A DNA stretch of 55,462 nucleotides from contig JAIPAP010000007.1 in the NCBI GenBank assembly GCA_021740045.1, positions 1 to 55,462 of the forward strand, written 5' to 3'. Within the stretch, counting starts at the first letter, position 1. Each line of letters opens with the position of its first letter. Positions 176 to 41,741 of this stretch are shown here, piece after piece. The DNA is from Bacteroidales bacterium. Lineage in GTDB: Bacteria > Bacteroidota > Bacteroidia > Bacteroidales > JAIPAP01. The position numbers and the translations under genes were made by a program. The notes beneath the pieces are model-generated. The model saw only the letters and a list, made by a program, of their open reading frames with translations, did no database searches and was not told the DNA's origin.

Positions 176-2671
176 ATGATGAAACGCAAGCATACCATAA
201 CTTTTATACTGATACTGTTGATATTGACCGCCGGTCGTATAAATGCACAACACGATACCCTGGCCCACTGGAGCTTTGATGCTATCGAAAACCTGGAAAT
301 GAGCGAAACGGCTTCCGGGAATACCTTTGAGATCAACTCCAACTGGGATGCCGCCGAAACGGTGACTGGGGTAAATAATGGTATGGCTATGCGTACCGAT
401 GGTTATTCGGTTTGGTCTGATGGCATGCTCGCTAGCGAGCTGCCGTCAGATCAATTCACTTATAGCGGCTGGTTTGCGCTGGAATCGTATCCCGTAAATA
501 CCGCCGGCTTTATCGCACGATACAACGGTGATGCCAATACCGGTTTTATGATCGGTGTTGATAAATTCGGGCAGTTGGTTAACATTATCAGCATTAATGA
601 AACTTTTCATACCTTCCTATCGGATGTAAGGGTAAATAAATTTGAATGGCTCCACTTTACCACTACCATCGACACCCTTTCAAAGGAAATTAAAACATAC
701 CTGAATGGGGAGCTTGTGATCAACAAAACGCTTCCTGAAGGCGCCATTACTTGGCCCGAAAGCATGAAAATATACCTGGGAAGATGGAACCGTAATGAAA
801 CGGTTGGCATCTTTCCTACTAATCTCATCAATGGGTTATTGGATGAAATCACCCTGCAACAAGGTATTTTATCCCAAAACGATATTCAAACTATTTATCA
901 ATCACAACTTCCGGAAATAGAGCCCAATCTCGCCATACCCGAATCGCGGTTTGAAGGAGACTTTCACCGTCCTATTTACCATGCCATCCCACCTTCGGCC
1001 TGGACCAACGAACCTCATGGCCTGGTATATCATGACGGCCTTTACCACATATTTTATCAAAAAAATGCCAATGGTCCGTATTGGTCACAAATCAACTGGG
1101 GGCATCAATGCAGCCCGGATCTGATCACCTGGACGGAAGAAAAGCCGGTATTATCGCCGGAGCCCGGTTATGATCAGGTGGGCATATGGTCGGGTGATTG
1201 TGTGATCAATGAGGGAGAACCCACCATTATGTACACCGGTGTTGATGGCGTGAAAGCTACTATGGACATCGCCACCAGCAGCGATAACATGCTGGAATGG
1301 GAAAAGTACCCACAGAATCCGGTAGTTGATCATCCTCCAACCACATACAACCATATGGATTTCAGGGATCCTTTTTTCTGGCAGGATGGAAACACCTGGT
1401 ATATGATCATAGGTTCGGGAATTCAGGGAACCGGCGGAACCGTCTTCATGTATAAATCGGATGATTTTTACAATTGGGAATTCATCAGACCGCTTTTTAT
1501 TGGGCACGATAATGAGGATAATTCGGGTATCTTTTGGGAAATGCCGGTTTTTATGAAGTTTGGCGATAAAAGGGTGCTCTTGGTGAATAAAGTCCCCGAA
1601 CCCAATGCACCGGCTAATGCACTGTATTGGGTTGGCGAATTCATAAATGAACGCTTCTTTCCCGATCATGAAATGCCCAAAAAGCTTGAGATCATTAATC
1701 ATTTGCTCTCCCCAACGGTAACAACCGATACCGAAGGCCGGGAAGTTGGCATTGGTATTATCCCCGATCATCTTCCGGCTGAAGAAAACTATGAAAACGG
1801 CTGGGCCCATCTTTACAGCCTTCCCCGGGTTTATTACCTGAAGGACAATGAGAAACTGGCCCAGAAACCGCATCCTGATTTGGTTAAATTAAGGGGAGAA
1901 CATCATCACTTCGAGAACATCGAAGTGGTTCAACATGAAGAAAACTACCTGGACGGCCTTTCCGGCCGGAATATGGAAATAAAGGCCATCATTGATCCGG
2001 GTGATGCCGGCAAGGTGGGCATTATCCTGGGTAAATCTCCCAATGAGGAGGAGCTTACGAAAATATATTATGATTTTACGTTTGACTCATTTGTAGTTGA
2101 TTTAAATCAGGCGAGTACTAACCCTAATGTTCCGGCCGGAACAAAAACGGGTGAATATGAATTACCACAGGATAAGCCTTTCGAAATGCGGGTATTCATT
2201 GATGGTTCGGTGGTAGAAGTTTTTATCAATGAAGAATCGGCTTTTACCACCCGGATTTTCCCTGAACTGGAAAACAGCACCGGAATCGATCTGTTTGCCG
2301 AAGGTGGTACCGCTACCGGTATAAAAGTAGATGCGTGGGAAATGCTCGATATGCATGCGCCCAATTTGGGTATTGGAGACAGTAAGGATAAAACCGGCAA
2401 TATCATTAACCTTGTAAGGCCCAATCCATTTATGGATCAGATCAATTTTGAGCTGAAAATACCGGAGCCTTCACAAGTAGAACTCATCATTTACAACATA
2501 TTAGGAAAGCAAGTTGATAAAATCTCTGCGGGGCAGGGTGTAAGCGGGAATCAACAAATTACATGGGACGGAAGGAATGCAGTTGGAAAAGACCTGTCCC
2601 CGCAGATTTTTATTGCTGAACTTAAAGTTGATGGTAAAACACGAGGTGTTGAAAAAATCATTAAAAAGTAA
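176..2671 (+). CDS. LamG-GH32-like secreted protein with T9SS sorting domain (Glu in nucleophile position)
   Basis: The frame is open from 98, but the ATG at 176 gives a proper signal peptide (MMKRKHTITFILILLILTAG, cleavage near INAQ), so I start there (831 aa). Order: signal peptide; LamG-type sandwich (about 25-240) with the FALESYPV segment shared with the gene at 13279; GH32 five-bladed propeller and C-terminal beta-sandwich (about 255-730, ending in the typical DGSVVEVFINE); T9SS type A sorting domain (about 745-831, PNPF start, Lys-rich end). In GH32 enzymes the nucleophile lies in NDPNG; here the motif is NEPHG, with Glu at codon 1010-1012. The FRDP Asp is kept, and the acid/base motif WECP is WEMP, keeping the Glu. 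The next GH32 gene starts 15 bp downstream, so they are probably co-transcribed. A role in fructan breakdown at or outside the cell surface is likely from context; activity on ordinary beta-fructans is uncertain because of the substitution. Confidence 0.88.
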   Translation: MMKRKHTITFILILLILTAGRINAQHDTLAHWSFDAIENLEMSETASGNTFEINSNWDAAETVTGVNNGMAMRTDGYSVWSDGMLASELPSDQFTYSGWFALESYPVNTAGFIARYNGDANTGFMIGVDKFGQLVNIISINETFHTFLSDVRVNKFEWLHFTTTIDTLSKEIKTYLNGELVINKTLPEGAITWPESMKIYLGRWNRNETVGIFPTNLINGLLDEITLQQGILSQNDIQTIYQSQLPEIEPNLAIPESRFEGDFHRPIYHAIPPSAWTNEPHGLVYHDGLYHIFYQKNANGPYWSQINWGHQCSPDLITWTEEKPVLSPEPGYDQVGIWSGDCVINEGEPTIMYTGVDGVKATMDIATSSDNMLEWEKYPQNPVVDHPPTTYNHMDFRDPFFWQDGNTWYMIIGSGIQGTGGTVFMYKSDDFYNWEFIRPLFIGHDNEDNSGIFWEMPVFMKFGDKRVLLVNKVPEPNAPANALYWVGEFINERFFPDHEMPKKLEIINHLLSPTVTTDTEGREVGIGIIPDHLPAEENYENGWAHLYSLPRVYYLKDNEKLAQKPHPDLVKLRGEHHHFENIEVVQHEENYLDGLSGRNMEIKAIIDPGDAGKVGIILGKSPNEEELTKIYYDFTFDSFVVDLNQASTNPNVPAGTKTGEYELPQDKPFEMRVFIDGSVVEVFINEESAFTTRIFPELENSTGIDLFAEGGTATGIKVDAWEMLDMHAPNLGIGDSKDKTGNIINLVRPNPFMDQINFELKIPEPSQVELIIYNILGKQVDKISAGQGVSGNQQITWDGRNAVGKDLSPQIFIAELKVDGKTRGVEKIIKK

Positions 2672-2686
2672 CCAAAAGATATACAC

Positions 2687-4327
2687 ATGAATTTCAGAAT
2701 GAATGGATGGAGTTTGTTGCTAATCGGGCTTGTTTTAATAGCCAATGGTTGCAAGCAACCTAATGGGGATGAAAATAAGGATGCAAAGCAGGAGAATGGA
2801 ACAGTACTTTACATAGATACTGCTGATGTAAGTTCGGATTATTACACCGAACAACACCGCCCGCAATTTCATTTTACCCCTGAAGAAAAATGGATGAACG
2901 ATCCCAATGGCATGGTTTATTACGACGGTGAATACCACCTGTTTTACCAGCATAACCCTGATACCAACGTTTGGGGGCCTATGCATTGGGGGCATGCGGT
3001 AAGCACCGATCTGGTCCATTGGGGCCATTTGCCCATTGCCCTTTATCCTGATGAGTTGGGAACGATTTTCTCAGGTAGTGCAGTGGTTGATGAAAAAAAT
3101 ACCACCGGTTTTAAAAAGGGGGAGGAAGATCCCATTGTAGCGATGTTTACCCATCATCATGATCAAAAAGGGCAAACGCAAAGCATTGCCTACAGCCTGA
3201 ACCGGGGGAGAGATTTCACAAAATACAAAGACAATCCGGTAATCACAAATCCCGGCATAGCCGATTTTCGCGATCCTAAAGTTCTATGGCATGAAGAAAG
3301 CAGGCAATGGGTTATGGTGCTGGCTGTTCGCGATCATGTGAGAATTTATAAAAGCCCCGATTTAATAAACTGGGAAATGACCAGTAAATTCGGCAAAGGG
3401 GAAGGTAATCATAATGGTGTGTGGGAATGCCCCGATCTATTTCAACTTCCGGTTGGAGGTAACCCGGAAGACAAGCGATGGGTAATGATCGTTAGCATTG
3501 GTGATGGCGCACCGAATGGAGGTTCGGGCACACAGTATTTTATTGGTGATTTTGACGGGGAGAAATTCACCAATGTCAACCCTGCCGGCACCGAGTTATG
3601 GATCGACTGGGGACGTGATAATTATGCGGGCGTTACCTGGGCTAATATTCCTGAGAAAGATGGAAGACGTATCTTTTTGGGATGGATGAGCAATTGGCGT
3701 TATGCAACGATGGTTCCAACCTACAAATGGCGCAGTGCTATGACAGTTCCCCGCAAACTGGAGTTATACAGCACACCTGAAGGGATCTGTTTAAGCAGTG
3801 AACCTGTGGATGAACTTACCAAATTGCGCATGGAAACCACCAGCCTTGAGGCTGAGATGATCTCCGGTTATGAAAACAAAACCGGCGGACTGGGATTCAG
3901 CTCTCCCACTATGGAAATGGAGTTGGAATTCACAACCGAAAATGGCTCACAATTTGGAAATGCCAGTCATTTTGGCATAGAGCTTTCCAATAGCAAAGAT
4001 GAAAAAGTGAGCATAGGTTATGAAAAGGATAATAAGCGTTTCTTTATCGATAGAAGGAATTCAGGCAAAACGGATTTTAGTGAAGATTTTGCGGGTATTC
4101 ATTACGCCCCATGGGAAAATGATGATGAAAAGATTAAAATGAAATTGCTTATTGACGTATCTTCGGTGGAATTATTTGCAGAAGACGGCAAAGTAGTAAT
4201 GACTGATATTTTCTTCCCCAATGAAGAATTCACACAGGTTAAATTGTTCTCAAAGAATGGGAATGTGAAACTGAATTCCGGGAAGATTTGGAATTTGAAA
4301 TCGGCTTGGAATCCGGGGGAGAAGTAG
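2687..4327 (+). CDS. GH32 beta-fructosidase (levanase/inulinase type), lipoprotein
   Basis: A 546-aa GH32 enzyme with a lipoprotein signal (hydrophobic stretch then IANGC). All three catalytic motifs are intact: WMNDPNG with nucleophile Asp72, FRDPK with Asp196, and WECPDLF with acid/base Glu247. The N-terminal propeller (about 55-360) is followed by the beta-sandwich (about 375-540) with the usual VSSVELFAEDGKVVMTD-type segment. This is the expected retaining hydrolase of beta-2,1 or beta-2,6 fructans, attached to a membrane by lipid. Whether it is exo- or endo-acting cannot be read from the sequence. It lies 15 bp after the LamG-GH32 gene and before a terminator at 4400-4430, so the two form a short operon at the left edge of the PUL. 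Confidence 0.93.
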   Translation: MNFRMNGWSLLLIGLVLIANGCKQPNGDENKDAKQENGTVLYIDTADVSSDYYTEQHRPQFHFTPEEKWMNDPNGMVYYDGEYHLFYQHNPDTNVWGPMHWGHAVSTDLVHWGHLPIALYPDELGTIFSGSAVVDEKNTTGFKKGEEDPIVAMFTHHHDQKGQTQSIAYSLNRGRDFTKYKDNPVITNPGIADFRDPKVLWHEESRQWVMVLAVRDHVRIYKSPDLINWEMTSKFGKGEGNHNGVWECPDLFQLPVGGNPEDKRWVMIVSIGDGAPNGGSGTQYFIGDFDGEKFTNVNPAGTELWIDWGRDNYAGVTWANIPEKDGRRIFLGWMSNWRYATMVPTYKWRSAMTVPRKLELYSTPEGICLSSEPVDELTKLRMETTSLEAEMISGYENKTGGLGFSSPTMEMELEFTTENGSQFGNASHFGIELSNSKDEKVSIGYEKDNKRFFIDRRNSGKTDFSEDFAGIHYAPWENDDEKIKMKLLIDVSSVELFAEDGKVVMTDIFFPNEEFTQVKLFSKNGNVKLNSGKIWNLKSAWNPGEK

Positions 4328-5307: not shown

Positions 5308-8130
5308 CTACCTCCCTCCTGCCAAATACTCCGTTGGCGAAACTTTAAACTGTTCCTTAAAACATTTGGCAAAATAGGAAGGCGTGGAAAAGCCCACTTC
5401 ATAGGATATTTCCGAAATGGACATACCACTGTTCTTTAATAAGCCGGCTGCTTTTTTCAATTTAATGGAACGTATAAACTCACTTACCGACATACCCGTA
5501 AGCTGCTTTATTTTGCGGTAAAGATGCACCCGCGACATGCTCATCTCCTTGCTAAATTCTTCAACCCCAAAATCTTCGCGCGACATGTTTTCATTAATTA
5601 CCTTAATGGCCTTATTGATAAATTTCCGGTCAAGCTGATTGAAGTTATCTCCTGATTCTTTATCAAAATCAAGATTGGCCCGGTAATGCTCCCGCATCCG
5701 CTTCCGCGATTCGATGAGTTTGTTTACCCTTACCTGCAAATGCCGGCTGTTGAAAGGTTTGGGAATGTATGAATCGGCGCCCACTTCCAGACCATCGAGT
5801 TTATGCTCCAGCGAGGCTCTTGCCGTTAGCAATATAACGGGAATATGACAGGTGTTCAGGTTGTTTTTCAGGTTTCTGGTCATTTCCATTCCGTCCATTT
5901 CCGGCATCATCACATCGGCCACTATCAGGTCGGGCATTTCTTCCTCTACTTTCCTAATTCCTTCTTTTCCATTAGCCGCCTCAATAACATGGAAATCACC
6001 GGTAAGGCTGCTGCGGATATAATCCCGGACATCTTGGTTGTCCTCTACAAGAAGGATAGTAGGGATTTCATTTTCTTCAAATGGCAACCGGCCGGTATTA
6101 AAATTTTCTTCCAGGCCGGGCATTACATCCGTTTCGGTGGGTGCTGAACGAATCTCACGTTTTGTACCGCCTTCCTCAATACTTTCAGTAACAATTTCAT
6201 CCTCATTCAGATGATCATTCCCTATTGGGAAATGAAGGGTAAAGGAAGTGCCCTGTCCTTTTTCACTTTCCACATGAATATCGCCATGATGGAGCTCTAC
6301 AAGCCCTTTGGTAAGGGAAAGGCCAATTCCTGTACCCGGGAAAAAATTCGATTGCCGTTTCTCAATCTGATAGAAATTTTCAAATATCTGCTTTACGTGC
6401 TCTTTCGACATTCCACGGCCGTTGTCTTCCACGCAGATCTCCACAGCGTTTTTTTCGTCGGCGCCAAAGAGGTGACGTACTTTTCTTAACCTGATGTGAA
6501 TCATCCCACCGTCAGGGGTATATTTAAAGGCATTCGATAAGAGGTTAAACATGATCTTATCCAGCTTATCTTCATCAAACCAAAGCATAAGGTGATCATG
6601 TTCTGCCTTAAGCTTAAAATCGATGCCTTTGTTCTCGGCCAGTTCGTCGAAACTCTCTTTTACCCCCGAAAGAAAGGCCACAATGTTATGATACCCGGCA
6701 TGAAGCTTCATCTTAGCGCTTTCGAGCTTACGGAAATCCATCAACTGATTGATCAGCCGCAATAGCCTCATAGCATTGCGATGCATCATTCTGAACTGGT
6801 GTTTTTGCTTTTCATTAAAATCAGGCGAGTGTAGTACTTTTTCGAGAGGGCCGAGTAATAAAGTAAGTGGCGTACGAAATTCATGAGAAATGTTGGTAAA
6901 AAAGCGAAGCTTCATCTGGGTGGCTTCTTCCAGCTGCCCGGTCATTTCCTTTAATTTGTTGTGCTGTTTTACAATTTCCTGGTTTCGCTTTTCAATTTCC
7001 TGGTTCTGCTCTTCGAGTTTGCGATTGGTTTTTTGCTTGTGGCGGTATGCTCTGATCATCAACACCACTAAACCTATTAATAAGCCTACGGATATCAATG
7101 AAAGGATTAATAACAAGCGCTGGCTGCGAAAGCGTTCCACTTGTTTATCGAGGATTTCCTTATGGGCACTGATCTTATTTTGCAATGATTGTATCTGATC
7201 GCCCTGCATTTTAATCACCCGTGCATTAGTGGAATCGATGAGGACCGTTTGCAGAATATTTTCCTTGCTCACTTGCCTTCCGTTCAGGATTTGCCAGGCT
7301 ATCTCAATGGCACGGCCACCCCCGGTTGGGTATAAAAGAGTTGCATCCAGCTTACCGTCAATCACATATTGGACACCTCCTTCCGAGCCAGGTAGGCCAT
7401 CAATGCCCATAAATTTAAGATCATTTTGTATTCCATAGTCATTGGCAGCATTGTATGCTCCTTTGGCCATAAAATCGTTATGAGCAAAAACCAGGTCGAA
7501 ATCATCATAGGTATCCTTAGCTCTCACCATCATATCATAACCCCCTTGCCAATTCCAGCGGCCTGTTTGGGAGAATATGATCTCAATGTTAGTATAAGAC
7601 TGCAAAGCATCCACAAAACCGGCATGCCTTTCCTGTGCCGGTGACGAACCCGGTAATCCCCAGATTTCCACTATCGTGCCTTTGCCATTCAACAAATTAG
7701 CCGCATAATAACCGGCTTCCCTGCCAATTTGGTAATTATCAGCTCCTATAAATGCTGTATAAGCATCCGATTCTATCTCCCGGTCGATCACAATTACGGG
7801 TATACCCTTGTTATAGACTTCTTCAACAATGGGAGTGAGCGGCTTGGATTCATTAGGTGAAACAATCAGCAGATCAATACCCTTATTGACCAGTTCCTTA
7901 ATATCATTGATCTGTTTTTGGCTGTTATCATTGGCATCGCGCATGATCATCTCCATATTGGGATAAAGGGTTAGTTCGTTGAGTATTTCCCGGTTCATCT
8001 GCTCGCGCCAAATATCTGAAGTGGTGCATTGTGAAAACCCAATGAGGTATTCTTCATTCTGGGCTCCTAGCTCAAAATTTGAGATGAGAAAAAAGTAAGA
8101 TATTAAGATGATTTTTAAACTTTTATACAT
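5308..8130 (-). CDS. Hybrid two-component sensor/regulator with periplasmic sugar-binding domain
   Basis: A 940-aa protein counted from the ATG at 8130, chosen because it opens a clear signal peptide (MYKSLKIILISYFFLISN) and a TAnnTTTG box lies just upstream; an in-frame ATG at 8199 gives no better start. Order: signal; periplasmic type I binding protein of the ribose/fructose class (about 25-320); one membrane segment (about 340-360); coiled coil; histidine kinase with the SHEFRTP motif (His416) and an ATPase domain with EDNGRGMS and GTGIGLSL; receiver domain with phospho-acceptor Asp739 (VADVMMPEMDG); AraC-type DNA-binding domain at the C-terminus. The regulator of the Bacteroides thetaiotaomicron levan locus (BT1754) has the same architecture and binds fructose in the periplasm, so a fructose or fructan-oligosaccharide sensor for the surrounding genes is the likely role. 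It is divergent from susC, sharing a 0.3-kb control region. Confidence 0.93.
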   Translation of the reverse strand: MYKSLKIILISYFFLISNFELGAQNEEYLIGFSQCTTSDIWREQMNREILNELTLYPNMEMIMRDANDNSQKQINDIKELVNKGIDLLIVSPNESKPLTPIVEEVYNKGIPVIVIDREIESDAYTAFIGADNYQIGREAGYYAANLLNGKGTIVEIWGLPGSSPAQERHAGFVDALQSYTNIEIIFSQTGRWNWQGGYDMMVRAKDTYDDFDLVFAHNDFMAKGAYNAANDYGIQNDLKFMGIDGLPGSEGGVQYVIDGKLDATLLYPTGGGRAIEIAWQILNGRQVSKENILQTVLIDSTNARVIKMQGDQIQSLQNKISAHKEILDKQVERFRSQRLLLILSLISVGLLIGLVVLMIRAYRHKQKTNRKLEEQNQEIEKRNQEIVKQHNKLKEMTGQLEEATQMKLRFFTNISHEFRTPLTLLLGPLEKVLHSPDFNEKQKHQFRMMHRNAMRLLRLINQLMDFRKLESAKMKLHAGYHNIVAFLSGVKESFDELAENKGIDFKLKAEHDHLMLWFDEDKLDKIMFNLLSNAFKYTPDGGMIHIRLRKVRHLFGADEKNAVEICVEDNGRGMSKEHVKQIFENFYQIEKRQSNFFPGTGIGLSLTKGLVELHHGDIHVESEKGQGTSFTLHFPIGNDHLNEDEIVTESIEEGGTKREIRSAPTETDVMPGLEENFNTGRLPFEENEIPTILLVEDNQDVRDYIRSSLTGDFHVIEAANGKEGIRKVEEEMPDLIVADVMMPEMDGMEMTRNLKNNLNTCHIPVILLTARASLEHKLDGLEVGADSYIPKPFNSRHLQVRVNKLIESRKRMREHYRANLDFDKESGDNFNQLDRKFINKAIKVINENMSREDFGVEEFSKEMSMSRVHLYRKIKQLTGMSVSEFIRSIKLKKAAGLLKNSGMSISEISYEVGFSTPSYFAKCFKEQFKVSPTEYLAGGR

Positions 8131-8162
8131 TTTAACCCCTTTGTATGCCAATTTACCCGTAT

Positions 8163-8170
8163 CAAAACTA
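8163..8170 (-). promoter_or_regulatory. -7 box of the hybrid regulator
   Basis: The minus strand reads TAGTTTTG (TAnnTTTG), 33 bp upstream of the ATG at 8130. It supports that start over the in-frame ATG at 8199. A TTTG further upstream (8197-8200) is spaced too far (26 bp) to be a convincing -33 element. Confidence 0.55.
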
Positions 8171-8292
8171 ATTAATTTAGCGTTAAGGTCGGACGTCAAA
8201 TTTCAATTTTTAGAAAGATTGCTTAGATAAAAGCCCTTCATCAAATTAAGGGGATTTGTAACAAAATTAACATTGAAGTAACATAACTGCTA

Positions 8293-8382: not shown

Positions 8383-8444
8383 ATTGAAATTTAATCGAAA
8401 CAAACATGAACTTTATAAAGGTTAAACAAAAAATAATCAATCTT

Positions 8445-11400
8445 ATGAAAAGGTTAATTGTATCACTACTTATGCTATGTATCTCGGTAGTGGCCTTTGG
8501 TCAGCAAACCGAGGCATCGGGAACGGTGGTCGAGAAAGCGACCAATGAACCCATTCCGGGCGTTACCGTATTGGAAAAGGGAACCAATAACGGTACCGTA
8601 ACCGATATTAACGGTAAGTTTACACTAAAGGTATCTTCCGATGCCACCCTGGTGTTTTCATTTGTGGGAATGAAGAAGCAGGAAGTTCCTGTTGCCGGTA
8701 ATACCACCTTTAATATTGCTTTGGAACAAACCCAGGTAGGGTTGGAGGAATTTGTGGTCACCGGTTACCAGGTTCAACGTAAGGCCGATCTTACCGGGGC
8801 TGTTTCGGTAGTTAAGGTGGAAGATGCCAAACAAGAATCCAATCCCAACATCATTAGTTCCATTCAGGGACGGGTTAGCGGTTTGCAGGTAACCTCAAGC
8901 GGTGAACCCGGAGGAGGTGCAACTTCCCTGAATATCCGTGGATTCAGCACCATTAATGATAATGCACCGCTTTATGTGATCGATGGTGTTCCCACCAAAA
9001 CCGGGATCAATAAAATTAACCCGAATGATATTGAGTCCATTCAGGTATTGAAGGATGCTGCTTCGGCATCTATTTACGGTTCACGTGCCTCCAACGGCGT
9101 TATTGTGATCACTACAAAAAAAGGTAAAGATGGTGATATGGATGTAAGTTTTAACAGCTATGTCGGTGTCCAGGGCCTTCGTAACCGCCTGGATGTTTTG
9201 AATGCCAAAGAATGGGGAGAAGTATACTGGCAAGCCAAGCGGAATGCAGGTGAAACACCTTCCCATCCTCAATATGGTAGCTGGAAGGAACCCATCATGC
9301 CTTCTTACATAGATGCCAATAATGAAATTCCGGCCGGTAACACCGACTGGATCGATGAGGCCTTTGATCCGGCCATGATGCAATATTACAATCTGGGGAT
9401 TAGCAATAGCTCCGACAAGGGTAATGTTTATTTCAGCACATCCTACACTGATCAGGAGGGTATAATGCGCTATACCGGTTTCAACCGCATTACCGCCCGC
9501 TTGAATTCATCATATAATTTGCTGGACAGGTTGGAAGTTGGAGAAAACATCTCAGTTAGCTATACTAATCGCACCCTGATTGATGACCCGGGTTTCACCC
9601 ACCAGATCCTTTTCCAGCATCCGCTTATCCCGGTCTACACCGAAAACGGCGATTGGGCAGGCCCCACAGACGGACTGGGCGACAAGCGTAATCCCATTGC
9701 CGTACTATCCCAAAATAAAGAGAACTATACCAAAGAATACCGTTTATTTGGTAATGCGTATGCAGACCTGGAAATTATAGAAGGTCTCAACATTAAATCT
9801 AATATCGGTATCGATTATATTCCGGTTTATGATAAGCAATTTGATCCACGTTGGCAAGAAGGAACCCGCTCGGTTGACCAGAATTACCTAACCATGGATT
9901 ACAAATATGACCTGAGCTGGAACTGGACCAATACTGCCAACTATGTTTATACCAGTGATAATCATAACATCAATGCCGTATTGGGTATTGAGGCCATACA
10001 TTCCGAAGGACAGGGCATTTATGGCCGGGTAAGTGACTTTTTGGTACAGGGTGTAGATTTCCGTTACCTGGATGCCGGCACCGGCGAACAAACCAATGGT
10101 GGCTGGGGTGTTGAAAGCTCACTCCTCTCCTACTTCGGTAAAATTGACTACACCTTGATGGGTAAATACCTCGTTTCGGCAACTTTACGTCGCGATGGTT
10201 CCTCACGCTTGGGTGAAAACGAACGCATCGATTATTTCCCTGCATTTTCGCTGGGTTGGCGTGTGAATGAAGAAAGCTTTATGGATTCCTATGATTTTAT
10301 CTCCAACCTGAAAATTCGAGGTGGATACGGTAAAACCGGTAACCAGGCTATCCCGACCAATGCAGCCTACACCATTTACCAGCCCGATGTGGAATATGCA
10401 CAGTACAACCTGAACGGTGATAATAGCACGCCCTCAGCAGGTTATCGCCTGGTGAGCCACGGCAATCCGAGCCTGCTTTGGGAAACGGCAACACAAACCA
10501 ATATTGGTCTTGATTTGGGCCTGTGGGATGATAAGTTAATGTTCACCGCCGATTACTTTATTAAGGAAACCGACGGTATGCTCGTAAATCCGCCATTGCT
10601 CGGTGTTTGGGGCGAAGGCGCTGCTCCTTATATCAATGGTGGTAAAATGGAAAACAAGGGTATTGAAATGAGCCTCGATTACAGGGGAGTTGTTAGTGAA
10701 GACTTTACTTACGAAGCAGGCCTTAATTTTTCCAAAACCGAAAACGAAGTACTCGACATTGGTGAAGGCAATGATTTCTTCGATTTTGCTCCCGGCCGTA
10801 TCGAACCCGGCCACCCGGTATTCGCTTTCTATGGCTATGTTGCCGACGGTTTATTCCGCAGTATTGACGATATTGAAAACCATGCTACACAAGAAGGCAT
10901 CGACGCTACTGAAAGAAGCCTTGGCCGTATCCGTTACCAGGACCTAAACGATGATGGTGTTATCAATGAGCAGGATCGCCAGTATATCGGCAGCCCGCAT
11001 CCGGATTTCTCCATGGGGTTGAACCTCAGCGCCAGCTATAAGAACTTTGATATCTCCATGTTCATTGAAGGAGTTTTCGGACGCGATATTTATAACACCC
11101 ATAAGCGCATGACCGATTTCACCTATTGGAACTTTAACTACGGCGCCCGCACCCTGGATGCCTGGACACCCGAAAATCCCGATTCCGACATTCCGGCGGT
11201 CAGCACTTCCAACTTCAACAATGAATACCGTCATTCAACCTACTTTATTGAAGACGGGACTTATGTGAAATTTAAAAATATAGTAATTGGTTACACGCTT
11301 CCATCAAGCTTTACGGATAAGGCCAACCTGGAATCAGTACGGTTCTACGTGCAGGCACAAAACATCTTCAATATAACCGACTATACCGGAATGGATTATG

Positions 11401-11495
11401 AGGTAGGAGCTGCTTCAGCTACCTTCTATGGCGTGGATAACCAATTTTATCCGCATACTAAAAATGTAAACCTGGGTGTAAACATCAATTTCTAA
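8445..11495 (+). CDS. susC: SusC-type TonB-dependent outer-membrane transporter
   Basis: A 1016-aa transporter counted from the ATG at 8445, which opens the signal peptide MKRLIVSLLMLCISVVAFGQ; an upstream in-frame ATG at 8406 adds 13 residues. Order: signal; carboxypeptidase-like regulatory domain (TEASGTVVEKATNEPIPGVT, about 20-105); TonB plug with the SusC hallmarks SIQGRVSGLQV, LNIRGFSTIND and VLKDAASASIYGSRASNG (about 110-225); a 22-strand barrel to the C-terminus (NVNLGVNINF). It works with the SusD lipoprotein encoded 19 bp downstream to import oligosaccharides with energy from TonB. The fructan specificity is inferred from the GH32 neighbours and the sensor type. Length is normal for the family. 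Confidence 0.96.
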   Translation: MKRLIVSLLMLCISVVAFGQQTEASGTVVEKATNEPIPGVTVLEKGTNNGTVTDINGKFTLKVSSDATLVFSFVGMKKQEVPVAGNTTFNIALEQTQVGLEEFVVTGYQVQRKADLTGAVSVVKVEDAKQESNPNIISSIQGRVSGLQVTSSGEPGGGATSLNIRGFSTINDNAPLYVIDGVPTKTGINKINPNDIESIQVLKDAASASIYGSRASNGVIVITTKKGKDGDMDVSFNSYVGVQGLRNRLDVLNAKEWGEVYWQAKRNAGETPSHPQYGSWKEPIMPSYIDANNEIPAGNTDWIDEAFDPAMMQYYNLGISNSSDKGNVYFSTSYTDQEGIMRYTGFNRITARLNSSYNLLDRLEVGENISVSYTNRTLIDDPGFTHQILFQHPLIPVYTENGDWAGPTDGLGDKRNPIAVLSQNKENYTKEYRLFGNAYADLEIIEGLNIKSNIGIDYIPVYDKQFDPRWQEGTRSVDQNYLTMDYKYDLSWNWTNTANYVYTSDNHNINAVLGIEAIHSEGQGIYGRVSDFLVQGVDFRYLDAGTGEQTNGGWGVESSLLSYFGKIDYTLMGKYLVSATLRRDGSSRLGENERIDYFPAFSLGWRVNEESFMDSYDFISNLKIRGGYGKTGNQAIPTNAAYTIYQPDVEYAQYNLNGDNSTPSAGYRLVSHGNPSLLWETATQTNIGLDLGLWDDKLMFTADYFIKETDGMLVNPPLLGVWGEGAAPYINGGKMENKGIEMSLDYRGVVSEDFTYEAGLNFSKTENEVLDIGEGNDFFDFAPGRIEPGHPVFAFYGYVADGLFRSIDDIENHATQEGIDATERSLGRIRYQDLNDDGVINEQDRQYIGSPHPDFSMGLNLSASYKNFDISMFIEGVFGRDIYNTHKRMTDFTYWNFNYGARTLDAWTPENPDSDIPAVSTSNFNNEYRHSTYFIEDGTYVKFKNIVIGYTLPSSFTDKANLESVRFYVQAQNIFNITDYTGMDYEVGAASATFYGVDNQFYPHTKNVNLGVNINF

Positions 11496-11514: not shown

Positions 11515-13191
11515 ATGAAAAAGCTAACTATATTCATAACATTCGCATTCGTTTCCATGCTTTTCTTTACGGCATGTAACGAAGATGAGTTCCTCGATAC
11601 GCAACCAAAAGGAACGTTGAGTGGCGATCAATTGGAAAGCCCCGAAGGTGTTGAAGCATTGATCAATGCGGCCTATGCAGGCCTGGCTATGAATTTCGCC
11701 GATCCGAATCCTGCATTCTTTCAGCCTCCGTCAAACTGGAGCTATGGCGATATGCGTTCGGACGATGCATACAAAGGTGGCGGCGGTGTTGGTGACATTG
11801 CCGAATACCATGACCTCGAAATTGGGAACGTACGTGCCGACAATCCACTACTTGAAAGAAAATGGCAAGCCATGTATGTGGCTATCGGAAGGGTAAATAA
11901 AGCCTTGAAAGCCTTACGGGAGATCGATCCTGCCGATTACGAAGATCGCAATGCCCGTATCGGCGAGATGCGTTTTCTGCGCGGTCATTTTTACTTCGAT
12001 ATGATGATCAACTTCGGAACTTTCGCCTATATTCATGAAGGTGTCGCAAATAATGAGTTGGAAGAGATCTCAAACAGCTTTGATGAAGAAGAACTTTGGG
12101 GCTATATCGAAACCGATTTCGCAGCTGCACGCGATACACTTCCCGAGGTAGCCTCAAAAGCCGGACGCGTTAATAAATTTGCTGCTCACGCTTATTTGAG
12201 CAAAACCTATATTTTCCAGGAAAAATGGGATCAGGCCCTTACCGAAGCCAATGCAGTGATCAATTCAGGTCAGTATGCGCTCTTTACTGATATAAGGAAC
12301 CTGTGGAAAGTAGATGCCGAACATGGTCCTGAATTCATTTTCAGTATTGAGCATTCCATTAATGATGGTTCCGATTTCGGTAATATCAACTGGGGAAACC
12401 TGTTGAACGCACCCAGGGGACCGGCATACGGCGGCGATGGTTTCCACCGCCCCAGCCAGAACCTGGTGAATGCTTATAAGGTTGATGAAAACGGCCTTCC
12501 GATGTTCGATAGCTTTAATGAAGAAAATGTAGATGAGGATACTCCTATTGATCCCCGTCTAGATCATTTCATCGGCCGTATCGGAATTCCCTGGAAAAGC
12601 TTCGAAGAAAGTGTGTATGATGAATCATGGTGCCGTAACCTGCAAGAATACGGACCCTATGCAGCCAAAAAATACCAGATCGACCCCAATTCATCATATA
12701 TGATCGAAGGCTGGCCCTGGGGTGGTTCTCCACTCAACTGGCCTATCCTTAAATATTCTGACGTACTATTGTGGAAAGCCGAGGCGCTCATCAAACTTAA
12801 CCAGAATCTTGACGAAGCCCGCAATCTGATCAATGACATCCGTGAACGTGCACAAAATGCACCCCGGGTACAAAAACTCGACGGCAGCGGGCCGGCAGCC
12901 AACTATAAGATCGAACCCTACCCGGCCAGCGGTTGGGATCAGGAAACTGCCCTCAAAGCCCTCCGTATGGAGCGCCGCCTTGAACTCTGCCTCGAAGGCC
13001 ACCGGTTTTACGACCTGGCCAGATGGGGCATTGCTGAGGATGTGCTCAATACTTACTTCGCCGAAGAAACCGAAGAACGTAGCTATTACGGACAGGCGAA
13101 CTTCATTGGCGACAAGCATGAGCATTTACCTGTTCCGCAAAATGAAATTGACCGCAGTGGCGGTCTTTACCAGCAGAATCCTGCATATTAA
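11515..13191 (+). CDS. susD: SusD/RagB-type glycan-binding lipoprotein
   Basis: A 558-aa lipoprotein: signal ending FFTAC, then acidic residues right after the lipid Cys (CNEDEFLD), which fits the Bacteroidetes surface-export signal. The SusD fold shows in the N-terminal DTQPKGTLSG segment, the TPR-like helices (MRFLRGHFYFDMM, AHAYLSKTYIFQEKWDQA) and the C-terminal ALRMERRLELCLEGHRFYDLARWG signature. It caps the SusC barrel and delivers oligosaccharides. It is the second gene of the unit starting at susC. An intercistronic hairpin follows at 13216-13242. Confidence 0.95.
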   Translation: MKKLTIFITFAFVSMLFFTACNEDEFLDTQPKGTLSGDQLESPEGVEALINAAYAGLAMNFADPNPAFFQPPSNWSYGDMRSDDAYKGGGGVGDIAEYHDLEIGNVRADNPLLERKWQAMYVAIGRVNKALKALREIDPADYEDRNARIGEMRFLRGHFYFDMMINFGTFAYIHEGVANNELEEISNSFDEEELWGYIETDFAAARDTLPEVASKAGRVNKFAAHAYLSKTYIFQEKWDQALTEANAVINSGQYALFTDIRNLWKVDAEHGPEFIFSIEHSINDGSDFGNINWGNLLNAPRGPAYGGDGFHRPSQNLVNAYKVDENGLPMFDSFNEENVDEDTPIDPRLDHFIGRIGIPWKSFEESVYDESWCRNLQEYGPYAAKKYQIDPNSSYMIEGWPWGGSPLNWPILKYSDVLLWKAEALIKLNQNLDEARNLINDIRERAQNAPRVQKLDGSGPAANYKIEPYPASGWDQETALKALRMERRLELCLEGHRFYDLARWGIAEDVLNTYFAEETEERSYYGQANFIGDKHEHLPVPQNEIDRSGGLYQQNPAY

Positions 13192-13278: not shown

Positions 13279-15474
13279 ATGAGAACCACAAGTAATTTAG
13301 TTTTAATCCTTTCAATGATGCTTTTGGCAATAGCATCATGCGAGCAACGCGAAAAAGACATGGTTGCCCGCTGGAGCTTTGAAGGCCCACAGGAGCAGAT
13401 GGGTAAAGAAAGTGTGAGCAAAAATGTATTTGCCATTCACTCCGATGTGCATACTATTGAAAGCGTGAAAGGCGTAAAAGGGGAAGCCATACGCCTGGAC
13501 GGATATTCAACCTGGGCAAAAGGCGCTGTGGATATTGATAAAAAGCTCAGGGCATTTACAGTATCTTCATGGTTCGCCCTGGAATCCTATCCGGTAGATA
13601 TAGCAAGCATTATCTCGGCTTATGATTCGGCAAGGCAAGTTGGATTCAAACTCAGTGTGAATGAATACGGCTATCCGGTGGTGGCACTGGATCATAAAGG
13701 CAACAAAGCCATTATACAAGGTAAACAACCACTTCCAAAAATCAAGTGGCATTACCTGACCGCCACAGTGGATCAAAACCAAGTGAACTTATTCAACAAT
13801 GGCGAATTAATTACACAGGGAACCCATGACTTATCCGGTTACTCCTTTCCTAAAGAAGGAGATATTTATATCGGAAAGGGGTATCAAGAAAATAAAGTAG
13901 CCGAAACCTTCCCCACCAACACGATCAATGGAATTGTTGATGAGGTTAAGATATTCGATCAAAAGCTGGCCGAGAAAAAGATAAAAACCACCTACGGTAA
14001 GCTGAAGCCTGAAAAGAAGCCGAACCTTACCATACCCTCAACACGTTTCGCCGGTGATTTCCACCGGCCCGAATATCATCCTATTCCCCCAGCCGCATGG
14101 ACCAACGAAACTCATGGATTGATTTATCATGATGATAAATATCATATCTATTATCAAAAAAATGCAACCGGTCCATATTGGGCTCATATCAACTGGGGGC
14201 ACATGAGCACCCCTGATCTCCTCCAATGGGATCATCACAAACCGGTTCTATGGCCCGAAAAGGGATACGACGAATTCGGTATATGGTCAGGACACGTCAT
14301 TAAGAATGAAGAAGGCACGCCGGTGATCATGTATACCGCCGGCGATGGCGAGAAATTCGGTATGGCCATGGCCTATCCGCAAAATGATAAGCTTACCGAA
14401 TGGAAAAAATACGAAAAGAACCCGGTAATTCCCGAAGCTCCCGAAAAATTTGAGCGATCCGATATGCGCGATCCCTATATCTGGAAGGAAAAAGATACGT
14501 ATTACATGATCATAGGCTTTGGGGTGGAAAAACCTAAAAAAGCCGGCGCTGTTTTACTTTATAAATCCATGGACCTAAAAAATTGGGAATACCTGAATTT
14601 AATGCATGTAGGCAAACCCGAAGTATTTCCTTGCGGTGTTTTCTGGGAGATGCCCGTATTCTGGAAATTTAAGAATAAGGATAAATATGTGCTCCTTGTC
14701 AATAAAATTCCCTATAAAGGAGATCCGGCAAGAGCATTTTATTGGGTAGGTGAGTTTAAAAATGAGCGTTTTGTACCTGATCATGAAATTCCAAAATTGC
14801 TGGAAGTGGTTAATGGATTGCTTTCACCCTCAGTGGCCTACGACAAACAAAAACGTACAACGGCCATTGCCATTATCCCCGATGAAATTAAACCACAGGG
14901 GAATTATGAATTGGGATGGGCACATCTATACAGTATTCCACGGGAGTGGAAGCTGGAAGATCATCGCATTAAGCAATATCCTCATCCGAATTTAAAACGT
15001 TTGCGCACCGGGCATCAATCCTATCAAAATATAGATTTAACGCCCGGTACCGACAATCGGCCCAACATTGACGGCCGTCAGCTTGAGCTGGTTACCGAAT
15101 TCTCACAGGGCAGTGCCCGAGATGTGGGAATAATCCTGGGCAAACATCCCGATGACAAGGAGTTCACCAAGATCTCCTACAACTTTGCGCTGGGCAAATT
15201 TACAGTAGATCGCACTAAATCAAGCCTTAATAAATACATGCATAGCGATGTGAAAAGCGGCAAATTGCCTGAACCCAAAAATGGAAAGATTAAAATGCAC
15301 GTGTTTGTCGATGGTTCGGTAGTAGAAGTTTTTGTTAATGACGGCTATGCATTTACCACCCGGATGTTCCCCGAGAAAAAAGTAAGTAATAATGTGGAGT
15401 TTTTTAGTGAAGGTGGCAAGGCAACCCTTGAGAGCCTTGATGTTTGGAAAATGGATATAAAACAAGTGAAATAA
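13279..15474 (+). CDS. LamG-GH32-like lipoprotein (Glu in nucleophile position)
   Basis: A 731-aa lipoprotein (MRTTSNLVLILSMMLLAIAS, then the lipid Cys). LamG-type sandwich (about 30-240), then a GH32 propeller and C-terminal sandwich (about 250-728) ending in DGSVVEVFVND. It is a close paralogue of the protein at 176-2671: both share FHRPxYH, WTNExHGL, YQKNAxGPYW and FWEMPVF, but this copy has no T9SS domain. The nucleophile motif is NETHG (Glu at codon 14107-14109, residue 277) in place of NDPNG, with the Pro lost as well. The MRDP Asp and the WEMP Glu remain. The next gene starts 1 bp after its stop, so they are in one operon. It may be a GH32 variant with another linkage or aglycone preference, or a binding protein; the sequence cannot decide. 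Confidence 0.88.
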   Translation: MRTTSNLVLILSMMLLAIASCEQREKDMVARWSFEGPQEQMGKESVSKNVFAIHSDVHTIESVKGVKGEAIRLDGYSTWAKGAVDIDKKLRAFTVSSWFALESYPVDIASIISAYDSARQVGFKLSVNEYGYPVVALDHKGNKAIIQGKQPLPKIKWHYLTATVDQNQVNLFNNGELITQGTHDLSGYSFPKEGDIYIGKGYQENKVAETFPTNTINGIVDEVKIFDQKLAEKKIKTTYGKLKPEKKPNLTIPSTRFAGDFHRPEYHPIPPAAWTNETHGLIYHDDKYHIYYQKNATGPYWAHINWGHMSTPDLLQWDHHKPVLWPEKGYDEFGIWSGHVIKNEEGTPVIMYTAGDGEKFGMAMAYPQNDKLTEWKKYEKNPVIPEAPEKFERSDMRDPYIWKEKDTYYMIIGFGVEKPKKAGAVLLYKSMDLKNWEYLNLMHVGKPEVFPCGVFWEMPVFWKFKNKDKYVLLVNKIPYKGDPARAFYWVGEFKNERFVPDHEIPKLLEVVNGLLSPSVAYDKQKRTTAIAIIPDEIKPQGNYELGWAHLYSIPREWKLEDHRIKQYPHPNLKRLRTGHQSYQNIDLTPGTDNRPNIDGRQLELVTEFSQGSARDVGIILGKHPDDKEFTKISYNFALGKFTVDRTKSSLNKYMHSDVKSGKLPEPKNGKIKMHVFVDGSVVEVFVNDGYAFTTRMFPEKKVSNNVEFFSEGGKATLESLDVWKMDIKQVK

Positions 15475-15475
15475 C

Positions 15476-17446
15476 ATGAAGCAATTGATCACCACCGGTC
15501 TTATTATCCTTATGTGCATGTCAAATACTGCACATAGTGGAGAACAAGATAGCCTGTATCATGAAAAGTACAGGCCACAATATCATTTCAACCGCCCACA
15601 GGGATGGATTGGTGATCCCTGCGCATTGATCTACCTGGATGGCAAATACCATCTTTATTACTGGGGACATGCCACCAGTGAAGATTTGGTGCATTGGGAA
15701 CATCACCCATGGGCTATCGAAGAAAGTGATAGCATAGGCGTGATGTCCGGATCGGCTGTGATCGATTGGAATAATACCAGTGGATTTCAAAAAGGTAACA
15801 ATCCCCCGGTTGTTGCGGCTTATTCACAACTACATTTCGACGACATTGAACAGACCCAGGCTATTGCCTACAGCAATGATCGTGGTATGACCTTTACCAA
15901 ATATGATTATAATCCGGTAATTGATATTGACTCACGCGAATTCCGTGATCCGCAAGTATTCTGGCACGAAGAAACCGAAAAGTGGATCATGGTGATAACG
16001 CTCTCGGGCAAACGGAAAGTAAGGTTTTATGCCTCGGATAACCTGAAGGATTGGAAACACCTTAGTGATTTCGGCCCTGTTGGATCGGATCAGGGGGTAT
16101 GGGAATGTCCCGATATGTTCCCCTTACCGGTTGACGGCGACACAACCCACATTAAATGGGTGTTGGAAGTGGATGTCCAGCCCATAAGTGGACAATATTT
16201 CATAGGCGATTTTGACGGAAGGGAATTCAAGCTGGATGAAAACTTTGCAGGTGATTTGAATAAGAGGGAGGAAAAGCCTCAGGGAAACGTAGTGTTTGAT
16301 TTTGAAAATAAAACTCTTGAGGGATGGAGTAAAACAGGGGAGGCATTCGATGCCTCCCCGGCCCGGGGGGCCTTACCAAAGCAGGCAATAATTATAGGCT
16401 ACACCGGTGAAAGGCTTATTAACAGTTTCTACAAACAAGACGGAACCATCGGTAAACTCACGTCCCCTGCTTTTACGATCGATAAGGATTATTTGAATTT
16501 CCAGATCGGTGGTGGAATGCATCCTAAAAGCACCTATATGAAGCTGGTGGTGGATGAAAAACCGGTCCGGTTTAAAACAGGTATCAATACCGAAACGATG
16601 TATTGGACGCATTGGAATGTTTCCGAATTTAAAGGAAAGAAAGCCCACCTCGAAATAGTGGATTCTTGTAAAACCGGTTTTGGGCACATTAATATCGATC
16701 ATGTAATGCTATCGGATAAACCGGCTGAAAAGAAACGCGAAAAGGCTTTCTGGATTGATTACGGACCCGATTTTTACGCGGTTCGTTCCTGGAATAATTA
16801 CCCGGAAAACAGCAACCGCCGAATTTGGATCGCCTGGATGGGGAACTGGCTGTATGCCCGTGAGGTGCCTACCAAACCTTGGAAAGGTTTTGAATCTATT
16901 CCGCGATCACTGGCTTTGAAAACTTTCCCGGAAGGTATTCGTCTGGTTCAGCAACCCATTGAGGAGCTTACCTCCTTGCGCTATGATCACTTCAACATAA
17001 GGGACAAATCCATTGAAGGAGTTGAGCAATTGGAATTTAAGCCCGAAAGGAATGTTTATGAGCTCACGGCGGAATTTGTTACAGGCGACACCAGGGAATT
17101 TGGCTTTAACTTGTGTAAGAAAGGTTCCGAAGGCTTGGTGGTGGGTTATCGCCCGGAGGATGAAAAAGTTTATGTAGACCGGCGCCATGCCGGCAACACC
17201 GGCTTTCATCCCGAATTCGCCAAGGTGTATGAAGGCCCTTTGAAAGCCCGGAATGGCCTGGTTAAACTGCACATTTTTATCGATCAGTCATCCATAGAAG
17301 TATTCGGAAATGAGGGTGAAACGGTTATCTCATGCCAGGTATATCCTGATGAAGACGACCTTTCCATCGAATTATTTAGCGAAGGTGGCAAAGTCCATCT
17401 AAGTAGTTTGAATGCCTGGATGCTGAAATCGGTCTGGAAGAATTGA
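15476..17446 (+). CDS. GH32 fructan hydrolase with a domain inserted in the propeller
   Basis: A 656-aa protein with an ordinary signal peptide (MKQLITTGLIILMCMSNTAH). The catalytic residues are intact: WIGDPCALIY with Asp47, FRDPQ, and WECPDMF. Two things differ from its neighbours. The loop after the first motif is short (HLYYWGHATSEDLVHW, without the usual YNP..WGxMHW stretch of about 14 residues), so the entrance to the active site should differ. About residues 265-420 form an inserted jelly-roll-like segment (FDFENKTLEGW to INIDHVML) between propeller strands, after which blade 5 resumes (WIDYGPDFYAVRSWNN). The C-terminal sandwich ends with the IDQSSIEVFGNEGE segment. A periplasmic exo-acting fructanase is plausible from the signal type. 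It starts 1 bp after the preceding gene. Confidence 0.9.
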   Translation: MKQLITTGLIILMCMSNTAHSGEQDSLYHEKYRPQYHFNRPQGWIGDPCALIYLDGKYHLYYWGHATSEDLVHWEHHPWAIEESDSIGVMSGSAVIDWNNTSGFQKGNNPPVVAAYSQLHFDDIEQTQAIAYSNDRGMTFTKYDYNPVIDIDSREFRDPQVFWHEETEKWIMVITLSGKRKVRFYASDNLKDWKHLSDFGPVGSDQGVWECPDMFPLPVDGDTTHIKWVLEVDVQPISGQYFIGDFDGREFKLDENFAGDLNKREEKPQGNVVFDFENKTLEGWSKTGEAFDASPARGALPKQAIIIGYTGERLINSFYKQDGTIGKLTSPAFTIDKDYLNFQIGGGMHPKSTYMKLVVDEKPVRFKTGINTETMYWTHWNVSEFKGKKAHLEIVDSCKTGFGHINIDHVMLSDKPAEKKREKAFWIDYGPDFYAVRSWNNYPENSNRRIWIAWMGNWLYAREVPTKPWKGFESIPRSLALKTFPEGIRLVQQPIEELTSLRYDHFNIRDKSIEGVEQLEFKPERNVYELTAEFVTGDTREFGFNLCKKGSEGLVVGYRPEDEKVYVDRRHAGNTGFHPEFAKVYEGPLKARNGLVKLHIFIDQSSIEVFGNEGETVISCQVYPDEDDLSIELFSEGGKVHLSSLNAWMLKSVWKN

Positions 17447-41121: not shown

Positions 41122-41714
41122 TAGGCAGCTCCCTCCTTTCGGCTTTTAACGATCTTTTGTGATGACTTGGAGAGATTCTCCTCATCTTCGAGAAAGCGCT
41201 TGATCTTGCGAATAGCATCCTGGTACCCGGGAATCTGAACTTTTTCATACAGATTCACCTTTTGGGTGGTTTTCTTCCGGGCATAATCGAGCAGGTGCAT
41301 TTTGCGGAGGAAAAATTCCCGCTCAATAGCCACGCGGGCCAACTCCTTCAGGACGGCAATTCCATCGAGGTACCATTTGGGTTTGTTGAATAAACTGAAC
41401 GATTTGGTCTCGAAAATGATATCTTCCAACACCGGCGTTTTCACACCGGCAATCTTCTTCACTTTAAGCTGAACATCCTTAATGCTTAAGAGGTCTTCCT
41501 CAAATTCGCCCCAAAGCCTCACCATATCATCATAAGCTTTCATTTTTTCATGAAGCTTTTCATCCAGGCGATCAGCCTCATCCTTGGCACGCTTCACTTC
41601 CACCCGCAGGGCCGATTCCTTGTTCTTGAGCGTGGGCAACGCCCGCTCACGAATGGCCAGCTGCTTCTTTAAGCGCTGTTGGGATGTTTTATTATATTGA
41701 AATTTTATCGACAC
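41121..41714 (-). CDS. atpD: V/A-type ATPase subunit D (central shaft)
   Basis: A 197-aa mostly helical protein with a basic start (KFQYNKTSQQRLKKQLAIRE) that matches the V-ATPase D family, and a long antiparallel coiled-coil pattern. It rotates within the A/B hexamer. It lies 27 bp after subunit B and overlaps subunit I by 1 bp (TAATG). Confidence 0.92.
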   Translation of the reverse strand: MSIKFQYNKTSQQRLKKQLAIRERALPTLKNKESALRVEVKRAKDEADRLDEKLHEKMKAYDDMVRLWGEFEEDLLSIKDVQLKVKKIAGVKTPVLEDIIFETKSFSLFNKPKWYLDGIAVLKELARVAIEREFFLRKMHLLDYARKKTTQKVNLYEKVQIPGYQDAIRKIKRFLEDEENLSKSSQKIVKSRKEGAA

Positions 41715-41741
41715 GGCTCAAATGCTTTTGGTTCACAAACG

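Follow-up and report, generated by a model that had tools for sequence, protein, structure and literature searches.

P0001 and P0002, two paralogous proteins encoded in a fructan locus of a Bacteroidales bacterium, are probably active retaining GH32 fructanases with a glutamate as nucleophile; endo action on an inulin-type beta-2,1 substrate, in a surface-bound or secreted form, is the likeliest assignment. From the sequences, their conservation, a modelled fold, the gene neighbourhood and a tree, we infer catalysis, the endo mode, the linkage, the location and a binding role for the LamG domain. We refer to the whole stretch of DNA analysed, 55,462 nucleotides, as the window. Its features that matter here are as follows.

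176..2671, plus strand: P0001, LamG-GH32 protein 1, 831 aa, with LamG, GH32N and GH32C domains and a FlgD-like / T9SS-like tail
1010..1012, plus strand: Glu279 (GAA) of P0001 at the GH32 nucleophile position, in WTNEPHG (codon position and alignment)
1367..1369, plus strand: Asp398 of RDP in P0001, at the transition-state stabiliser position (motif position and alignment)
1538..1540, plus strand: Glu455 of FWEMP in P0001, at the acid/base position (motif position and alignment)
2687..4327, plus strand: GH32 with the ordinary Asp (WMNDPNG, WECP; Pfam and motif alignment)
5308..8199, minus strand: hybrid two-component regulator with a Peripla_BP_4 (periplasmic-binding) sensor (Pfam)
8406..11495, plus strand: SusC-like TonB-dependent transporter (Pfam matches to TonB plug and barrel)
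11515..13191, plus strand: SusD-like protein (Pfam)
13279..15474, plus strand: P0002, LamG-GH32 protein 2, 731 aa, with LamG, GH32N and GH32C domains
13546..13983, plus strand: LamG (Laminin_G_3) domain of P0002 (Pfam; the best fold match of the domain model is AbnA, a GH43 arabinanase)
14107..14109, plus strand: Glu277 (GAA) of P0002 at the GH32 nucleophile position, in WTNETHG (codon position and alignments)
14470..14472, plus strand: Asp398 of RDP in P0002 (motif position; invariant in 41/41 aligned sequences)
14647..14649, plus strand: Glu457 of FWEMP in P0002, at the acid/base position (motif position; invariant in 41/41)
15476..17446, plus strand: GH32 with Asp (WIGDPCA, WECP) and a stretch inserted within the propeller (split Pfam match, motif)
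17495..18637, plus strand: DUF4960 protein, a probable surface fructan-binding protein (Pfam; PDB match 8aa2_T, E 1.1e-38)
18746..20488, plus strand: GH32 with Asp (WLNDPNG, FECP) and a T9SS sorting domain (Pfam, sorting-domain model, motif)

The locus therefore holds a hybrid two-component regulator, a SusC-like transporter (so named because of its position beside SusD), a SusD protein, five GH32 genes and a DUF4960 protein. The 3.9-Mb, 97% complete assembly has six GH32N matches, every one inside the window, and the three GH32 genes other than those of P0001 and P0002 are all of the Asp and Cys type. The match of the DUF4960 protein, PDB 8aa2 chain T, is a component of the BT1760 locus that we take to be the levan-binding partner of BT1760. 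P0002, encoded directly after SusD and with a lipobox-like start (LLAIASC, by eye), is probably a surface lipoprotein. The N terminus of P0001 looks signal-peptide-like by eye, and its TIGR04183 sorting-domain score of 21.5 bits is slightly under the cut-off of 23.

Both proteins score far over the Pfam cut-offs for the GH32N and GH32C models and so belong to GH32; for PF00251 (GH32N) the scores are 213.7 bits for P0001 and 199.5 bits for P0002, against a cut-off of 22.1. P0001 matches PF13385, PF00251, PF08244 and PF13860 over cut-off. The two share 45% identity, and both reading frames are open. When they are aligned with the other GH32 proteins of the window, WMNDPNG becomes WTNEPHG in P0001 and WTNETHG in P0002, RDP is retained, and the acid/base motif reads FWEMP instead of WECP. 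The first-pass annotation had described these exchanges, from NDPNG to NEPHG/NETHG and from WECP to WEMP with the RDP Asp and the acid/base Glu kept, and the codons and alignments confirm them. A five-row MAFFT alignment puts WEMP one column off WECP, but pairwise and HMM alignments set its Glu on the acid/base Glu. The GH32 carboxylate triad (nucleophile in WxN(D/E), Asp of RD, acid/base Glu) is thus present, although not in its commoner Asp form. A sequencing or frame artefact is ruled out, as the same change occurs in two separate genes and in 39 related loci.

A glutamate nucleophile is already reported inside GH32, for endo-inulinases. In PMC5245892, the nucleophile of INU2 is Glu43 in YWMNEPNG and the proton donor is Glu233 in EVPDM; PDB chain 3rwk agrees, with WMNEPNG and WEVPDM. 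Two further papers call the Glu of WMNEPNG critical for endo-inulinase (PMC6042768) and state that in endo-inulinase Glu43 replaces Asp (PMC13416181). A review drawing on Kim et al. gives Glu323 as the putative nucleophile and Glu519 as the acid/base of the Arthrobacter S37 endo-inulinase; the E323A and E519A variants have reduced kcat with unchanged Km, and D460A is dead (PMC5984348). The review prints the S37 motifs as WMNDEPNGL and ECMP, which are taken here as D(E) and C(M). The novelty of the substitution is therefore smaller than first thought. The first-pass annotation had supported a Glu nucleophile by analogy with other retaining families; the precedent lies within GH32 itself, and the other families are unneeded. 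Of the three readings that the annotation offered, the one that holds up best is a GH32 subgroup of altered specificity.

Both window proteins carry the endo-inulinase (EC 3.2.1.7) signature, that is, a Glu nucleophile (NETHG/NEPHG) and a residue other than Cys after the acid/base Glu (WEMP). The step from this signature to an endo-inulinase draws on two characterised precedents and on convergence, and we regard it as reasonably probable. Endo action does not depend on Glu, however, as the endo-levanase BT1760 has Asp.

We propose the following mechanism. Glu277 of P0002, or Glu279 of P0001, would act as nucleophile in place of the Asp and attack the fructosyl unit bound in subsite -1 at its C2, with Glu457 or Glu455 as the acid/base and Asp398 stabilising the transition state. 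Met in place of the Cys that normally follows the acid/base Glu (relatives have Leu or Val) would belong to the same change. The chain, likeliest an inulin-type beta-2,1 fructan, would be cut internally, outside the cell or on its surface, while the LamG domain would help to keep hold of the polymer. SusC/SusD and the Asp-type GH32s of the locus would then take over the fragments. The substrate linkage is the least certain part of this reading, because the DUF4960 neighbour may fit levan-type loci too.

The Glu is strongly conserved across related proteins. It is invariant at the nucleophile position in two alignments of the clade, in 35/35 and 41/41 sequences. The larger comprises P0001, P0002 and 39 of the 45 Glu proteins from the 39 loci described below, near-copies being left out. 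It has 44 invariant columns, among which the only acidic residues are Glu277, Asp398, Glu457 and the C-terminal Asp678 (P0002 numbering); Asn276 is also invariant in 41/41. The first-pass annotation would have yielded to another Asp in the nucleophile place, and the 41 rows rule this out, since no further acidic residue of the propeller is invariant. A single third-base change separates Asp from Glu codons, so that reversion would be easy, yet it is seen in no clade row read. The annotation had also held that the substitution was selected. Its argument from two paralogues is weak by itself, and the support comes instead from the strong conservation and the presence of Glu in 39/39 loci. The motifs it gave fit the window proteins, but the clade is looser: NExHG varies to NESYG, NEPYG, NEGYG and NEPHA, and RDP to RDT, RDQ, RDE or HDP in some members.

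To relate the nucleophile to the residue after the acid/base Glu, we assembled 119 non-identical rows, each 380 residues or longer, including five PDB chains and four window proteins; shorter rows (among them the window gene at 15476-17446, which its insert splits) were left out, as were identical rows and a duplicate from the window. The nucleophile column is readable in 115 of the 119, with 56 Glu and 59 Asp. In every Glu row (56/56) the acid/base Glu is followed by Met (51), Leu (4) or Val (1, INU2). In every Asp row (59/59) Cys follows the acid/base position, the acid/base Glu itself being lost in two. In a partial sample of GH32s from the phylum of the window (54 rows without PDB rows, from top-scoring or hand-picked GH32s in loci L072 to L115), all 43 readable rows have Asp, including three rows that repeat a single gene from two loci; 42 of the 43 read EC and one reads AC. 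Exceptions to the coupling are two divergent Catenovulum GH32s, which combine GDANP (Asp) with LEVPEY, and another divergent gene with ETPEI. From the EVP of a cut Catenovulum gene we had expected NE, but the full genes read GDANP, i.e. Asp. The coupling of Glu with Met and of Asp with Cys thus applies to the bulk of the GH32 family covered by these rows and not to the divergent branches.

To analyze the distribution of the clade, we searched one genome per species across 84,980 species with an alignment of the two window sequences. The search patterns were FWEMPVF and (S/G)WFALESY. A total of 66 stretches matched them, and relatives are encoded in 39. As the patterns are strict, 39 loci is a lower bound. 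The nucleophile site lies outside both patterns, so Glu was not selected by the search, but the inclusion of FWEMPVF means that Met after the acid/base Glu was partly selected in these loci; among members found by other routes, some have WELP or FELP. Each of these named-genome loci (39/39) encodes one or more proteins with Glu at the nucleophile position, and six of the 39 have two Glu copies, as does the window. The hosts include Flavobacterium, Pedobacter, Terrimonas, Draconibacterium, Prevotella, Bacteroides and Tannerellaceae, together with one Rhodothermales bacterium and one Acidobacteria bacterium. The presence of LamG was checked by Pfam on five clade proteins and by alignment on 32.

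The neighbourhood of the window recurs in many of these loci. Homologues of SusC and of SusD are each found in 34/39, of the regulator in 23/39 and of the DUF4960 protein in 16/39. SusC and SusD are missing from five loci: L049 and L053, whose contigs are short, L046, which a contig end truncates, and L060 and L061, which come from the Rhodothermales and the Acidobacteria bacterium. An Asp-type GH32 accompanies the Glu type in 37/39 loci, where three of the Asp-type genes break off ahead of the nucleophile yet have EC; L031 and L034 have none in the part covered.

Plasmid records carry clade members in the gammaproteobacterium Catenovulum (two genes) and in the haloarchaea Haloterrigena and Natrinema. 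The Haloterrigena protein is a single chain of 1404 aa in which a Glu-type GH32 is followed by an Asp-type GH32, a natural pairing of both types. A Natronorubrum plasmid match covering 91% of P0002 is of the Asp type. None of the plasmid records that span 80% of the query (4 in one search, 3 in another) is actinobacterial, and there is no clade relative among 19 matching stretches of viral contigs. Of 395 genomes from the phylum of the window, 71 have a GH32N match and three have the Glu clade at E 1e-60. Each of these three has at least two copies, a lower bound for two of them as the search scored the two best candidates per genome; in one, the gene is identical to that of the Rhodothermales locus. 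Among 40 relatives from the order of the window, none has the Glu clade; eight have some match at 1e-20, amounting to 10 genes, nine with Asp and a tenth with the nucleophile column unread but with EC. The distribution of the LamG-GH32 Glu clade is therefore patchy.

We next asked how the Glu type relates to INU2 by descent. A quick tree of 105 rows, computed with the nucleophile and acid/base columns removed and without bootstrap or outgroup root, sets 45 Glu rows apart by a branch with support 92, which is under star level (98 without the haloarchaea). INU2, on a long branch, falls within a 52-row group that is otherwise Asp type or cut (support 100). With INU2 among Asp rows and the 45 Glu rows apart, two gains of Glu are needed. 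A tree constrained to unite the 46 Glu rows is worse by 90.5 log-likelihood units (AU p 0.0008), and a single origin of Glu shared with INU2 is rejected by the tree and the AU test. The combination of Glu with loss of Cys thus seems convergent between the fungal endo-inulinases and the LamG clade. In line with this, invertases and exo-enzymes come before INU2 when solved relatives are ranked by sequence; INU2 is 10th of 42 for P0002, 20th of 40 for P0001 and 20th of 50 for the clade profile. Kinship is therefore a poor guide to function here, and the function is argued by convergence, not by descent.

The AlphaFold2 model of P0002, built from 41 sequences (mean pLDDT 91.6, pTM 0.89), is that of an ordinary bimodular GH32, with a five-bladed propeller and a beta-sandwich. 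Its best fold match is the GH32 enzyme 7vco (Z 43.5, 461 residues), and it also matches the INU2 endo-inulinase 3sc7 (Z 41.5, 455 residues, rmsd 2.5), the levan fructotransferase 4ffh (Z 41.4) and the endo-levanase 6r3r (Z 34.2); the order of the matches does not tell endo and exo enzymes apart. Modelled alone, the LamG domain (pLDDT 95.2) best matches residues 643-846 of AbnA (Z 23.3, 195 residues, 17% identity), an extracellular GH43 arabinanase; entry 5hon shows this part, domain 4, in complex with a ligand whose name begins 'arabinot'. GH43 and GH32 are both families of five-bladed propellers that cut furanosides, and AbnA is presumably endo-acting; if so, it offers a solved parallel for a LamG-type binding domain on an endo-furanosidase. 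Lower fold matches of the LamG model are jelly-roll domains of unrelated proteins, including the binding parts of clostridial neurotoxins, which reflects a common fold.

Part of this evidence could also be read as pointing to an active Glu-nucleophile GH32 that is exo-acting or specific for levan or branched fructan, with Glu tuning specificity or pH and not the mode of attack. We consider this unlikely, although it is the alternative that fares best. The nearest solved relatives are indeed invertases and exo-enzymes, the link to endo action is drawn from just two characterised enzymes, and the DUF4960 protein, with homologues in 16 of the 39 related loci, would suit it. Paralogue pairs in 6/39 loci suggest two substrates, and the two Glu copies there and in the window are unexplained by one endo function. 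However, both Glu-type GH32s described in the reports cited here are endo-inulinases, the LamG fold match comes from a polysaccharide-cutting enzyme, and the three Asp-type GH32s of the window may already supply the exo function.

It is improbable that the proteins are non-catalytic GH32 derivatives that bind fructan and serve as surface glycan-binding proteins or sensors. Other retaining glycosidases often lose activity when Asp is changed to Glu, and the LamG domain and probable surface location would fit such a role; beyond these points, nothing was found in favour of the carbohydrate-binding derivative that the first-pass annotation had listed. Binding alone would not require the acid/base Glu and the RD Asp, which are invariant together with the nucleophile Glu in 41/41 sequences, and the loss of catalytic carboxylates that marks non-catalytic GH32 relatives is not seen, as all three are kept; Glu is, moreover, the reported nucleophile of characterised GH32 endo-inulinases. 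Least probable of all is the annotation's transferase, a fructosyltransferase yielding difructose anhydride or longer oligofructans, for which nothing speaks apart from the propeller match to 4ffh (Z 41.4), a match no better than those to hydrolases and to an enzyme that keeps Asp (the entry names a D54N mutant), and the locus is a SusC/SusD uptake system.

For P0001 and P0002 we therefore retain the endo-acting, Glu-nucleophile fructanase. It is tempting to speculate further, though with less than even confidence, that the LamG-GH32 clade gained Glu independently of the fungal endo-inulinases, and that Asp-to-Glu with Cys-to-Met/Leu/Val is a convergent endo-fructanase switch readable from sequence. 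If so, the nucleophile has been swapped on two or more occasions within an active retaining glycosidase family, accompanied by a corresponding change of the acid/base motif. Sorting GH32 enzymes into endo and exo is a hard problem, to which PMC11760859 is devoted. If Glu and loss of Cys mark endo action, many unassayed GH32 genes of gut and environmental Bacteroidota would become assignable at once, including those on which the sharing of inulin fragments between a bacterium and its neighbours depends.

To our knowledge, no member of the LamG-GH32 Glu clade has been assayed. Among the literature matches listed, whose scope leaves out most subscription journals, no paper deals with the clade, none has GH32 and LamG in one enzyme by title or abstract, and BACOVA_04502 does not occur in the 12 of 235 matching papers listed for it. 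INU2 of Aspergillus ficuum (EC 3.2.1.7, PDB 3RWK/3SC7) is alike in its Glu nucleophile, its non-Cys residue after the acid/base Glu (WEVP) and its bimodular GH32 fold; it is unlike in being fungal, in its 516-residue chain, too short for a LamG domain, in its own loop motifs and in its separate tree branch. The fungal loop 1 motif PTANVWGN, taken from PMC6042768, is replaced in P0002 by NATGPYWAHINWGH. The Arthrobacter sp. S37 endo-inulinase, compared through the review's description, is bacterial and shares the Glu nucleophile (Glu323) and an acid/base Glu519 in ECMP; its Glu at position 323 leaves room for a long N-terminal part.

Among Bacteroidota, B. ovatus and B. caccae have cell-surface endo-inulinases according to PMC5967196, in which B. 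thetaiotaomicron strain 8736 appears without putative ones; as described there, the former are alike as surface enzymes on inulin. In PMC11784079, the inulin locus of Segatella copri has a single GH32, which is named a predicted endo-inulinase. The B. thetaiotaomicron BT1760 levan locus resembles that of the window in SusC/SusD, a surface endo-GH32 and a surface binding protein, and its DUF4960 protein is the PDB match (8aa2_T) of ours. BT1760 itself is unlike P0001 and P0002: its nucleophile is the Asp in GFVGDPMP and its acid/base motif is ECP (PMC5245892), and the BT1760-like C-terminal domain PF16346 scores 20.0 and 19.6 bits on the window proteins, under the cut-off of 31.4. Against these systems, what looks new in the LamG-GH32 clade is the paired loss of Cys, the breadth of the clade and its independent origin.

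In the haloarchaeon Haloterrigena, a LamG-GH32 of the Glu type, which carries Glu at the nucleophile position, is followed by an Asp-type GH32, with the usual Asp, within a single protein (locus L067, 17422-21636). The same order is found in Natrinema (locus L068, 11458-15713), where a frame break divides the arrangement into two annotated genes. Natronorubrum (locus L069, 7830-11327) encodes a GH32 of the Asp type whose front part is long, and a gene annotated as GH68, a family that makes fructan, adjoins it on the opposite strand.

Several GH32 genes are clustered on a Catenovulum plasmid (loci L066 and L071). The cluster includes two Glu-type LamG-GH32 genes and two divergent GH32 genes with the motifs GDANP and LEVPEY, and the front parts of the divergent proteins appear repeated when read by eye.

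In Asp-type GH32 genes of three other loci, L011, L013 and L108, the acid/base Glu is replaced, giving ACP, KCP and ACP, respectively. These proteins are possibly inactive or altered relatives.

The window, which belongs to a Bacteroidota-like genome, also carries genes for a V/A-type ATPase:

39346-46330, minus strand, V/A-type ATPase genes (subunit I, both nucleotide-binding subunits and their neighbours)

One Asp-type GH32 of the window's fructan locus (15476-17446, plus strand) has WIGDPCA where WMNDPNG is usual, and its propeller is interrupted by an insert of about 150 residues. In the PDB, the top two matches to this protein are exo-inulinases.
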